A DNA stretch of 64,000 nucleotides from Fibrobacterota bacterium (GTDB lineage Bacteria; Fibrobacterota; Fibrobacteria; UBA11236). Within the stretch, counting starts at the first letter, position 1. Every line of letters starts with the position of its first letter. Positions 25,083 to 33,885 of the stretch are shown here, piece after piece. The stretch spans positions 186,001 to 250,000 of the forward strand of contig CANKII010000001.1 of assembly GCA_947482115.1 (NCBI GenBank). The letters are read 5' to 3'. A program made the position numbers and the translations under genes. The notes under the pieces are model-generated. The model saw only the letters and a program-made list of their open reading frames with translations, was not told the DNA's origin and searched no databases.

Positions 25083-25120
25083 CCCCGGTAGGGGCGACTC
25101 GCGAGTCGCCCCTACCGGGG
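25083..25120. repeat. 38-bp perfect REP-like palindrome
   Basis: The left 19 bases (arm CCCCGGTAGGGGCGACTCG) are the exact reverse complement of the right 19. It sits between the zinc-ribbon gene and the end of the acyltransferase gene. On the minus strand the TAG stop of the acyltransferase lies within the palindrome. The outer GGTAGGGGC / GCCCCTACC arms are shared with the palindrome inside the RAYT gene at 32482-32509, so both probably belong to one REP-like family. Confidence 0.85.
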
Positions 25121-30316: not shown

Positions 30317-31729
30317 ATGAAATTCATCAGTGATAATTTTCTGTTGCATAGTGATGCCGCCGTCCGACTGTATCACGATCATGCCGCGAATCAACCTATT
30401 CTGGATTACCACTGCCATCTCTCCCCGCAGGATGTGGCGGAGAATCGCAGGTTTGCGAACCTGCAGGAAATCTGGCTGGAAGGCGATCATTACAAATGGC
30501 GCGCCATGCGCTCCAATGGTGTATCCGAGGACAAGGTCACCGGCAATGCCGATCCCTATGAAAAATATCTGGCTTTCGTTAAAACGGTAACCGCAGCGCT
30601 TCGGAATCCCCTGTATCATTGGGGTCATCTGGAATTGCAGCGGTATTTTGACATCGATTTATTGATCAATGAGAAGAATGCCAAAGAGATTTGGGATCGC
30701 GCCAATGAGAAATTGAAATCCGACGAGCTTTCCGCCCATGGCATTCTGAAAAAGTTCCGTGTCCATGCAGTATGCACTACGGATGATCCCATTGATGACT
30801 TGGCACATCATCAGGCCATAGCAAAATCGGGGATTCAAACGCGAGTCTATCCAACCTTTCGACCCGACAAGGCTTTGGGTATTGATATCGCTGCGGATTT
30901 CAATGCTTGGACGGATCAATTGGCGCAGGTTTGTGGAATGGATATTTCCAATTTGGAAACCTTCATGGACGCATTACGCAAGCGCCATGATTATTTCCAT
31001 TCTCTGGGTGGACGCTTATCCGACCATGGCTTGCCGCATTGTTATGGAGAGGATTGCACGGAGCAGGAAGCCTCCGCATTTTTCAACAAAGCTCGATCTG
31101 GGAAGGATGCCACGCTTGCGGAGAAGGAAAAGTTTGCCTCATATTTGATGCATTTCTTCGGGGTGTTGGATGCGGAGAAAGGCTGGACCAAGCAACTGCA
31201 CTTGGGACCATTGCGGAATAACAATACCCGTCTGTTCAATAAACTTGGTCGCGACATCGGCTGCGACTCCATCGGCGACGATCTTCAAGGGCCGGGTCTT
31301 TCTCGCTATCTCGACAAGCTGGATTCCATCGGCAAACTTCCGAAAACCATTCTTTACAACATCAACCCCCGCGACAATTATCTGTTCGCCACCATGGTCG
31401 GGAATTTTCAGGACGGCTCGATTCCCGGCAAGATTCAATTCGGGTCGGGCTGGTGGTTTCTGGATCAGAAAGAGGGGATGGAGATGCAGATCAACGCCCT
31501 GTCCAATCTCGGCCTGCTTAGCCGCTTTGTGGGAATGTTGACCGATTCCCGAAGCTTCCTTTCATATACACGACATGAATACTTTCGCAGGATTTTGTGC
31601 AATCTGCTGGGTGAGGATGTGAAGCACGGACTTATCCCGGATGATATGGAATTGCTGGGGAATATGGTTGAGGATATCTGCTATCGGAATGCGAAGAACT
31701 ACTTCGGGCTTGAAGTGGGGGAGTGGTAG
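30317..31729 (+). CDS. uxaC: Uronate isomerase (glucuronate/galacturonate isomerase)
   Basis: 470 residues, the normal UxaC length. The opening FISDNFLLHSDAAVRLYHDHA and YHCHLSPQDVAENR carries the metal-binding His-x-His. Later CTTDDPIDDL, HLGPLRNNNTR and GSGWWFLDQKEGMEMQ are typical of the family. It converts D-glucuronate to D-fructuronate and D-galacturonate to D-tagaturonate, the first step in breakdown of pectin and glucuronoxylan sugars. It is the last gene of the operon. Mannonate dehydratase, KdgK and KdgA are not in the window. Confidence 0.96.
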   Translation: MKFISDNFLLHSDAAVRLYHDHAANQPILDYHCHLSPQDVAENRRFANLQEIWLEGDHYKWRAMRSNGVSEDKVTGNADPYEKYLAFVKTVTAALRNPLYHWGHLELQRYFDIDLLINEKNAKEIWDRANEKLKSDELSAHGILKKFRVHAVCTTDDPIDDLAHHQAIAKSGIQTRVYPTFRPDKALGIDIAADFNAWTDQLAQVCGMDISNLETFMDALRKRHDYFHSLGGRLSDHGLPHCYGEDCTEQEASAFFNKARSGKDATLAEKEKFASYLMHFFGVLDAEKGWTKQLHLGPLRNNNTRLFNKLGRDIGCDSIGDDLQGPGLSRYLDKLDSIGKLPKTILYNINPRDNYLFATMVGNFQDGSIPGKIQFGSGWWFLDQKEGMEMQINALSNLGLLSRFVGMLTDSRSFLSYTRHEYFRRILCNLLGEDVKHGLIPDDMELLGNMVEDICYRNAKNYFGLEVGEW

Positions 31730-31741
31730 CCGCTGACCTTT

Positions 31742-32086
31742 TTATTCAATCCAATAAGTTGAATAGACAATTACCCACTTTCCATCTATTCGGGCAATAT
31801 TTAACTCACGCCCAGTACCATCATCTGATAGGGTGCTGATGAATCGTGTATGCAGTTTGAATTTTCCTGGAAAATTATGATTGTATATCTCTGAAACAGA
31901 CGTAATTATTTGATCGGGATTAATTTTAACAGATTGGATTAGGTTTCGTATTTCGCTGGTATCAACATCGCATGGAATCGAAATAGAATCCAACAAACAA
32001 GGTTTTTTAATGATCGAGACGTTTGGCTTCTGTGTGCAGCAAATTATGAGAATAACCACTAATAAAAGGATCAGTTTAATTTTCAT
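31742..32086 (-). CDS. Small lipoprotein, AT-rich, function unknown
   Basis: 114 residues. The N-terminal hydrophobic run (KLILLLVVILIICC) ends in adjacent cysteines that can serve as the lipidation site. The mature part has no motif I recognise, apart from a C-terminal region that looks like a small beta sheet (LNIARIDGKWVIVYS). Base composition is much more AT-rich than its neighbours, which fits a recently acquired gene. The start is ATG at 32086; a TTG directly before it is less likely. It is convergent with uxaC and next to a RAYT gene. Confidence 0.65.
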   Translation of the reverse strand: MKIKLILLLVVILIICCTQKPNVSIIKKPCLLDSISIPCDVDTSEIRNLIQSVKINPDQIITSVSEIYNHNFPGKFKLHTRFISTLSDDGTGRELNIARIDGKWVIVYSTYWIE

Positions 32087-32158
32087 CAATCAAACCTTTT
32101 AGCACTGTGTTTTAGTAAACGCACCGATTTGCCGTCCGTAAATTTAAATCTAGTCTAG

Positions 32159-32172
32159 GTGACCTAGGTCAC
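32159..32172. repeat. 14-bp perfect palindrome upstream of RAYT
   Basis: GTGACCTAGGTCAC is a perfect palindrome 36 bases before the RAYT start, within an AT-rich stretch. It could be an operator or a boundary of the element. Nothing in the sequence decides between these. Confidence 0.5.
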
Positions 32173-32207
32173 GCCATAAGTTTCGCAACCATTCCATATT
32201 ATGGGTC

Positions 32208-32786
32208 ATGCAATATGACCACAACAAATACCATCGTCGATCCGTCCGTCTCAGGGGATACGATTACAGCCGCCCCGGTGCGTATTTCTTCACCCTGTGT
32301 CTGGAAAATAAGGATGAATGGCTGTTCGGCAATGTCAAACACGGGGAAATGCAATCAACGGAATTTGGGAATATCGTATGGGACGAATGGCGGCGAACGC
32401 CGGATATGCGTTGTGAAATGGTGTTGGATTCGTTTGTGGTGATGCCGAATCACATTCACGGCATCATTTGGATTGTTTCCGGTAGGGGCATCCGGCCGGA
32501 TGCCCCTACGATGCACGCCCCTATTCATAAAATTCCCACATTGACCGTTGCCGAAAAACATGGTCCGTCGAAACGTTCGTTGGGTGCATTTGCTGCGGGA
32601 TTCAAATCCATTACCACGCGACGTATCAATGAAATACGGCAAACACCACGTGTTCCGGTGTGGCAACGCAATTACAATGAACACATTATTCATAATGAAG
32701 GGGAATTGAACCGTATCCGCCAATATATTGCGGAAAACCCGGCGAAATGGGAACGGGATAAAGAAAATCCAAATCGGTTGTTATGA
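32208..32786 (+). CDS. REP-associated tyrosine transposase (RAYT, IS200/Y1-like)
   Basis: 192 residues. The histidine pair of the HUH nuclease is in MPNHIHGI, and the catalytic Tyr is expected in QRNYNEHIIHNEGELNRIR, followed by IAENPAKWERD. The N-terminal YHRRSVRLRGYDYS and GAYFFTLC are typical of the family. These single-strand nucleases cut and join at REP-type hairpins and are usually single-copy genes. Both motifs look intact, so it is probably active. A 28-bp palindrome (32482-32509) is translated in frame as GRGIRPDAPT just after the HUH motif. Its arms match the palindrome at 25083, which suggests that this family is its substrate. The stop is one base from the convergent oxidoreductase. 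Confidence 0.92.
   Translation: MQYDHNKYHRRSVRLRGYDYSRPGAYFFTLCLENKDEWLFGNVKHGEMQSTEFGNIVWDEWRRTPDMRCEMVLDSFVVMPNHIHGIIWIVSGRGIRPDAPTMHAPIHKIPTLTVAEKHGPSKRSLGAFAAGFKSITTRRINEIRQTPRVPVWQRNYNEHIIHNEGELNRIRQYIAENPAKWERDKENPNRLL
32482..32509. repeat. 28-bp perfect REP-like palindrome inside the RAYT gene
   Basis: The left arm GTAGGGGCATCCGG is the exact reverse complement of the right arm. The outer GTAGGGGC/GCCCCTAC are identical to those of the palindrome at 25083-25120, while the centre differs (ATCCGGCCGGAT against GACTCGCGAGTC). Its length is not a multiple of three, but the flanks keep the frame open. Confidence 0.85.
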
Positions 32787-32787
32787 C

Positions 32788-33885
32788 CTAATTAAACGCC
32801 CTTAACTCCGGCGTTTTCTTCAACGGTAAACTCACCGATTTCCCACCCGCCAACGCAGACTCGTAGATCGCCAGAATAATCTCTACGGACTTGCGACTTT
32901 GTTCACCATTGATGGCCGGTTCGCGGCCATCGCGAATCGCCTTCACAGCATCCTCAAACACATTCTTGTGATCTTCGAAATTGATGGCCTTGGGATCCGC
33001 CGCACCCACGCCCGCCGCGCCCTTGTCACCATACTTTTCCAGCACAGCCACGTCTCCCGGCAGCGGATTCTTGAAATCCCAAACCGTGATGCTCTTGTCC
33101 TTCATAAAGATGGAGCCTTCTGAACCGCATACATGGACTTCCGCGCCATGTCCCTTGTTTGAGAAGGCGGCTGTGGAACCTTCAATGACGCCCAAGGCGC
33201 CGTTCTTGAAGCGCAGAACGGCCACGGCCGTGTCTTCCACCTCGATGCGCTCATGAGCCGCAAGGCGGGCAAAGGCGCACACGGATTCCACTTCGCCGAT
33301 GAGGTAATACAACTGATCGATGGTGTGAATGGCCTGATTCATCAACGCACCGCCGCCGTCCAATTTCCATGTGCCGCGCCAGCCGCCCTGATCGTAATAC
33401 TCCTGGGTGCGATACCATTTCACATAGGCATCTGCCATCGTGATGGTGCCAAGCCTTCCAGTGTCCACCGCTTGTTTGAATTCCTTGACCGAGTCGAAGA
33501 ACCGCCGTTGATGCACTCCTGCAAGGATCACACCGTTCTTTTTGCAGGCTGCGATCATGGCGTCGATCTTTTCCAGCGTAATCTCAACCGGCTTTTCGCA
33601 GATGACATGTTTTTTGGCTTCCGCTGCTTTCACAGCCGATTCCATGTGGCTGCCGCTGGGCGTACCGATGGTGACGATGTCCAGTCCGGGATGTGCCAGA
33701 AATTCCTCATATTTGGAATAGGCTTTCACGCCATATTCATTGGCCAGTTTTTCCGCAGCTTCCATGCGAAGATCGAAGACGCATTCCAGATGTCCATCCT
33801 GCATGGCTTGAATGGCCTTGGCATGAAAATGCCCAATCATTCCGCAACCCACGATTCCGAATCCCAGTCCTGACTTGTCTTTCAT
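32788..33885 (-). CDS. Gfo/Idh/MocA-family oxidoreductase
   Basis: 365 residues. The N-terminal Rossmann motif is GIVGCGMIGHFHAKA, the conserved EKP is in VICEKPVEITLEKID, and a substrate-domain stretch reads WKLDGGGALMNQAIHTIDQL. These NAD(P) enzymes act on sugars, inositols or nucleotide sugars. An AAAGGATT ribosome-binding site precedes the ATG. It follows another Gfo/Idh-like gene by 23 bases and is the last gene of a long minus-strand block. Substrate unknown. Confidence 0.88.
   Translation of the reverse strand: MKDKSGLGFGIVGCGMIGHFHAKAIQAMQDGHLECVFDLRMEAAEKLANEYGVKAYSKYEEFLAHPGLDIVTIGTPSGSHMESAVKAAEAKKHVICEKPVEITLEKIDAMIAACKKNGVILAGVHQRRFFDSVKEFKQAVDTGRLGTITMADAYVKWYRTQEYYDQGGWRGTWKLDGGGALMNQAIHTIDQLYYLIGEVESVCAFARLAAHERIEVEDTAVAVLRFKNGALGVIEGSTAAFSNKGHGAEVHVCGSEGSIFMKDKSITVWDFKNPLPGDVAVLEKYGDKGAAGVGAADPKAINFEDHKNVFEDAVKAIRDGREPAINGEQSRKSVEIILAIYESALAGGKSVSLPLKKTPELRAFN

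Follow-up and report, generated by a model that had tools for sequence, protein, structure and literature searches.

The RAYT gene and its in-frame palindrome

The window analyzed here, a stretch of 64,000 nucleotides from a Fibrobacterota bacterium (assembly GCA_947482115.1, contig CANKII010000001.1), harbors on its plus strand, at positions 32208-32786, an open reading frame of 192 aa whose predicted product is a RAYT (TnpA-REP), a HUH-Y1 transposase. The HUH metal-binding motif MPNHIH (residues 79-84, 32442-32459, plus strand) and the catalytic tyrosine motif YIAENP (Y173, 32724-32741, plus strand) were found to be invariant among 25 relatives, in the columns M79, P80, N81, H82 and H84 of the former and Y173, N177 and P178 of the latter. 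The reading frame matches NCBIfam NF047646 (E 4.5e-14) and Pfam Y1_Tnp (E 4e-4), in both cases below the curated cut-off, and the one solved structure found with a profile of the 25 relatives was that of the E. coli TnpA-REP (4ER8). The same entry, in which the enzyme is bound to a REP hairpin, was the top PDB fold match (E 1.1e-6) of the AlphaFold model (mean pLDDT 82.7). These motifs and the match to 4ER8 uphold the RAYT identity that had been proposed from the sequence; the TnpA-REP core fold with its HUH and single Tyr is accompanied in this genome by a population of GTAG-footed REPs.

Between the two motifs lies a variable linker (residues 90-124, 32475-32579, plus strand), whose length differs among relatives and which appears in the AlphaFold model as a low-confidence stretch without predicted secondary structure, separating strand 82-89 from helix 125-144. 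A perfect palindrome of 28 bp, GTAGGGGCATCCGGCCGGATGCCCCTAC, with the double-foot layout GTAG-GGGCATCCGG/CCGGATGCCC-CTAC, is located in it at 32482-32509 and is read in frame as GRGIRPDAPT (residues 92-101, part of the low-confidence stretch), eight residues past the HUH motif NHIH (residues 81-84). The palindrome and its peptide had been described in this form by a sequence-only reading of the window, and both are present. As single-stranded DNA, the palindrome is predicted to form a stem of 12 bp and a 4-nt loop, with -15 kcal/mol (z -3.3) for the region. It is the sole inverted repeat of at least 10 bp within 31700-33000; no REPs flanking the gene were found there, which weighs against the term REPtron and not against membership of the RAYT family, several subclasses of which lack flanking REPs (Quentin et al. 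2018, PMC6006769; PMC3733652).

The upstream dyad

A dyad, GTGACCTAGGTCAC (GTGA-N6-TCAC, 32159-32172), is followed after 22 nt by CATATT, a putative -10 hexamer (32195-32200, plus strand), just ahead of the gene. The arrangement GTGA-N6-TCAC-N22-CATATT recurs with unchanged spacing upstream of all seven intact RAYTs of the genus (four in the window genome G000, two in G002 and one in G003; besides the window, L017, L018, L019, L020, L021 and L030) and nowhere else in those genomes. If CATATT is taken as the -10, the center of the dyad lies at -41.5, as in class II CRP/FNR promoters, and the ATG at 32208 would fall at +1/+2, giving a leaderless transcript, a reading drawn from the spacing as compared with such promoters. 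The element is thus possibly a RAYT-only promoter/operator of the class II CRP/FNR type with a leaderless mRNA. That the dyad might be a feature of all group 4 RAYTs was ruled out, none of the 78 RAYTs outside these seven having it.

Dispersed REPs of the genome

Palindromes of the form GTAGGGGC-N4-30-GCCCCTAC occur twice in the window and in none of 100 shuffles. The second, at 25088-25115, is a dispersed REP with the arms of the RAYT-internal palindrome; the earlier reading had noted the common arms and had placed this palindrome at 25083, which is where the complementary flanks of this REP (25083-25087 and 25116-25120) begin. A search of the whole genome (2.72 Mb) for further copies revealed 62 palindromes, most of them outside RAYTs, versus 0 for a control pattern. 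Four of the 62 fall within the four RAYT ORFs of the genome, where 0.05 would be expected by chance placement (P about 3e-7). A chance palindrome was ruled out by the genome copies, by their absence from the shuffles and by the recurrence of linker palindromes in relatives, and the claim of a REP residing within its own nuclease gene with the frame kept is borne out by arms that are those of the genome's REP population.

The flanks were read for 55 of the 62 palindromes. All 48 sampled non-RAYT REPs of 27-29 bp in G000 have mutually complementary flanks adjoining both feet, over 2-12 bp with a mean of 6.3 (shuffled-flank control 0.67), while the complementarity at the four RAYT-internal copies is 0, 0, 0 and 2. 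The sibling genome G002 displays the same pattern, with complementary flanks at 16/16 dispersed REPs (mean 8.0) and a value of 1 for the RAYT copy. Thus, each of the 64 sampled non-RAYT REPs of the two genomes forms the exact center of a longer palindrome, with flanks that differ from one copy to the next (e.g., window 25083-25120; L015, L056 and L068; L216-L240). Complementary flanks were not found in G003 (26 REPs, mean 0.7), in G001 (three REPs, mean 1.7) or at REPs of other phyla, and a general REP feature was thereby ruled out, the phenomenon being confined to G000 and G002. The REPs may have been inserted into palindromes, or the flanks may have been copied at or after insertion. Among RAYT-internal REPs, the one in the linker of a Calditrichaeota RAYT (L094) is the sole copy with long complementary flanks (9 bp, GGTTCGGGT/ACCCGAACC), resembling the dispersed REPs of G000.

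In addition, about 12 other conserved-looking genes of the genome bear an in-frame REP in variable segments. The genes concerned, which we take from their sequences to be SMC-, HrpB-, UvrD-, KdsB-, DprA-, RecD-, GlyS-, QueG- and GlgE-like, include those at L015, L056, L057, L050, L071, L042, L008 and L065. In their sibling orthologs the site is often filled as well, by a REP or a remnant whose core is another one, which suggests that these are old sites with recurrent turnover. As a test of how the flanks come about, the combined length of palindrome and both flanks was examined for divisibility by three; this holds in 6 of 13 interior genes, a share that does not differ from one third.

The same site in other RAYTs

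Four RAYT homologs are encoded in the genome, and the RAYT at 32208-32786 shares 45-55% identity with each of the others. All four contain a GTAGGGGC...GCCCCTAC palindrome past MPNHxH, between the HUH and Tyr motifs, with the cores ATCCGGCCGGAT, GACCCGGCGGGTC, GCGTTGCAACGC and GGGACAATCCC, lengths of 28, 29, 28 and 27 bp and two reading phases; core, length, offset and phase differ even in the sister paralogs L016 and L017.

The comparison was extended to near relatives and, across many phyla, to 80 loci of named genomes, which yielded 85 intact RAYTs. With a stem score of 10 or more as the threshold, the HUH-Tyr linker contains a palindrome in 49/85, compared with 0.6% of codon-shuffled linkers, and most of these palindromes are perfect. 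The remaining 36/85 have no clear linker REP, so a linker REP is not required. Weak, decayed-looking palindromes (scores 8-9) occur in about 14 more relatives than expected. Among the 74 RAYTs of named genomes, the palindrome lies in the linker in 37, near the N-terminus in 1 and near the C-terminus in 2. The GTAG foot, determined in 43 RAYTs, is in phase 0 in 31 and in phase 1 in 12, and the phase that reads TAG (phase 2) is not used in any of them.

In a tree from which most of the linker had been excluded, palindrome presence needs at least 19 changes, 5 of them forced by well-supported branches, versus 27.5 for shuffled labels; support for this tree is weak (49 of 82 inner branches open) and the exact number of changes is soft. 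The varying core, length, offset and phase, together with these changes, point to recurrent gain, loss or replacement. The linker palindrome is therefore regarded, from sequence comparison, as partly inherited and as repeatedly gained, lost or replaced at one permissive site, and not as an ancestral part of all related RAYTs. The sequence-only reading had seen in it an insertion of the element into the gene: the turnover among relatives supports insertion in part, as a recurrent process and not as a single event in the RAYT at 32208-32786. Paired RAYT alleles, one with an empty and one with a filled site, were not found. In three Microcystis RAYT orthologs from three species-level genomes (L168, L169 and L170, 92% protein identity), the internal REP GTAGAGATAATTCATGAATTATCTCTAC is identical and the surrounding gene varies, with too few substitutions for constraint to be recognized. 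Two in-frame internal REPs with related cores were observed in each of the RAYT genes L080, L111 and L118.

The arms of the internal copies correspond to those of the dispersed REPs in the same genome. Genomes with GTAGGGGC in the RAYT have dispersed REPs with GTAGGGGC as well, and four genomes with GTAGAGAC in the RAYT contain 1, 9, 1 and 13 GTAGAGAC palindromes (RAYT copy included) versus 0, 0, 0 and 1 with GTAGGGGC. Within the genus of the window, five of the six RAYT REPs have dispersed copies with an identical core (1, 2, 0, 1, 3 and 4 copies). About half of the REPs drawn at random from the window genome have an identical partner, and the core sharing of its RAYT REPs is not above that of a random REP (3/4 vs 2.1/4), by which a more frequent sharing of RAYT cores with dispersed copies than expected was ruled out. 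Since identical partners are common for any REP, core identity indicates membership of the population and is not evidence of the RAYT copy as its source.

Relation to known systems

In 2018, Quentin et al. (PMC6006769) described double-foot REPs for TnpA-REP subclass 2.4, which corresponds to RAYT group 4, and reported REPs within the tnpA-REP genes themselves, between HuH and Y with the frame intact, in a predicted peripheral extension, an arrangement unique to this subclass. The REP-in-RAYT arrangement has thus already been described, and the Fibrobacterota RAYT is a new example of it. Its assignment to subclass 2.4 (group 4) is based on motifs and on the insertion, not on the published tree: the subclass motifs NH[IFV]H, WQ and YIxNNP (YIxxNP-type) appear as NHIH, WQ (residues 152-153) and YIAENP (Y173; E in place of N, where L018 has YIANNP), the variable insertion past the HUH strand lies between strand 3 and helix C, and a GTAG...CTAC double-foot REP stands in frame between HuH and Y. 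Unlike the published cases, this RAYT has no flanking REP within 31700-33000, the dispersed REPs are centered in longer palindromes, and a genus-specific dyad lies upstream. No description of palindrome-centered dispersed REPs (G000, G002) or of a dedicated RAYT upstream dyad/-10 was found in the cited literature.

GTAG-tagged REPs have also been reported in frame in other genes, many of which serve DNA synthesis and repair, and in three species REPs were described within palindromic tracts (PMC3733652). Both features have counterparts here, although the tracts described there share a consensus, whereas the flanks in G000 and G002 all differ and have only their complementarity in common. The Rickettsia palindromic elements, as far as that paper treats them, likewise lie in frame in genes that still code; RPE-4/6 are, however, CGTC-tagged, and for CGTC REPs it finds no dedicated transposase (PMC3733652). 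In groups 2 and 3, recognition is governed by GTAG and by stem or loop features (PMC8266576), and these REPtrons, with the E. coli TnpA-REP (4ER8), resemble the present case in the top fold match and in GTAG-footed hairpins as substrates, which here are putative; in contrast, group 2 REPs are bulged hairpins (PMC8266576), and in-gene REPs are restricted to subclass 2.4 according to Quentin et al.

Interpretation

The observations are probably best accounted for by a group 4 RAYT whose linker repeatedly receives or replaces cognate REPs, which are tolerated there and carried along on transfer. The enzyme would be a HUH-Tyr nuclease of the type acting on single-stranded hairpins with GTAG feet, and a member of the genome's REP population lies within its ORF, in the disordered linker that separates the HUH strand from the helix after it. 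REPs would reach the site, or be replaced at it, through exchange with dispersed copies, either recombinational or mediated by the RAYT; their toleration would follow from a linker that can take up additional residues and from GTAG reading as a stop in just one phase of the three, the encoded peptide presumably not being needed by the enzyme; and the gene would take its cognate REP with it on transfer. This explanation is favored by a site filled in 4/4 RAYTs of the genome and in about half of the relatives, and by arms that match the dispersed REPs. It is opposed by the 36/85 relatives without a clear REP, by the lack of an empty/filled allele pair among the RAYTs found, by Pfam and NCBIfam scores under the curated cut-offs and by RAYT copies without the complementary flanks of dispersed copies, a difference which suggests that the internal copy did not arise in the same way as the other REPs of this genome. 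That the internal REP seeds the dispersed population is the least certain step, and it is put forward tentatively.

Tolerance alone is nearly as likely as exchange with carrying along: the linker would be one of many permissive coding sites and the internal copy would be without a role, its over-representation in RAYTs arising from a very permissive site or from closeness to the place where the nuclease is synthesized. Toleration itself, which the sequence-only reading had suggested, is well supported by the disordered linker and the exclusive use of stop-free phases, and the in-frame REPs of about a dozen other genes, the excess of decayed-looking palindromes and the view of Quentin et al. 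(PMC6006769) all agree with a copy that does nothing more. What tolerance alone leaves aside is the occupation of one site in four of four RAYTs against an expectation of 0.05, the recurrence of mostly perfect palindromes in half of the relatives across phyla, and the lack at RAYT copies of the flank complementarity seen at the genome's other intragenic copies. Autoregulation, the other role once suggested, would mean that the RAYT limits its expression by binding the internal REP, as part of the gene or of the mRNA, or that expression is limited by a hairpin which stalls transcription or translation. The hairpin is strong as DNA and lies within a transcribed gene, and the operator-like, genus-specific dyad would provide a dedicated control region; yet the dyad, the sole regulatory-looking element found, is no REP and lies in the putative promoter region, and 36/85 relatives have no clear linker REP. 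This role is very unlikely. It is scarcely conceivable that the encoded residues belong to the conserved parts of the protein and that codon usage produced the palindrome as a by-product: the position is unchanged in many relatives, but the peptides are wholly different (GRGIRPDAPT, VGATRRVAPT, VGAGQSRPYV and VGANNYLPLR), as are the phases, by which a conserved peptide was ruled out, and the arms, as DNA, are found 62 times across the genome, for the most part away from RAYTs.

A RAYT with a cognate REP in its own ORF would constitute a compact natural enzyme-substrate pair, and the matched arms across phyla offer ready sets for specificity tests of group 4, for which no enzyme assay is reported in the cited literature. 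These pairs bear on the question of how REPs spread. A further and rather unlikely proposal is that the internal REP is a maintained master copy of its own family, with dispersed copies placed by a different reaction, here into palindrome centers, so that two classes would be distinguished by their flanks. That RAYT-internal and dispersed REPs differ cleanly in their flanks in two sibling species, and not in a third, renders the placement step testable.
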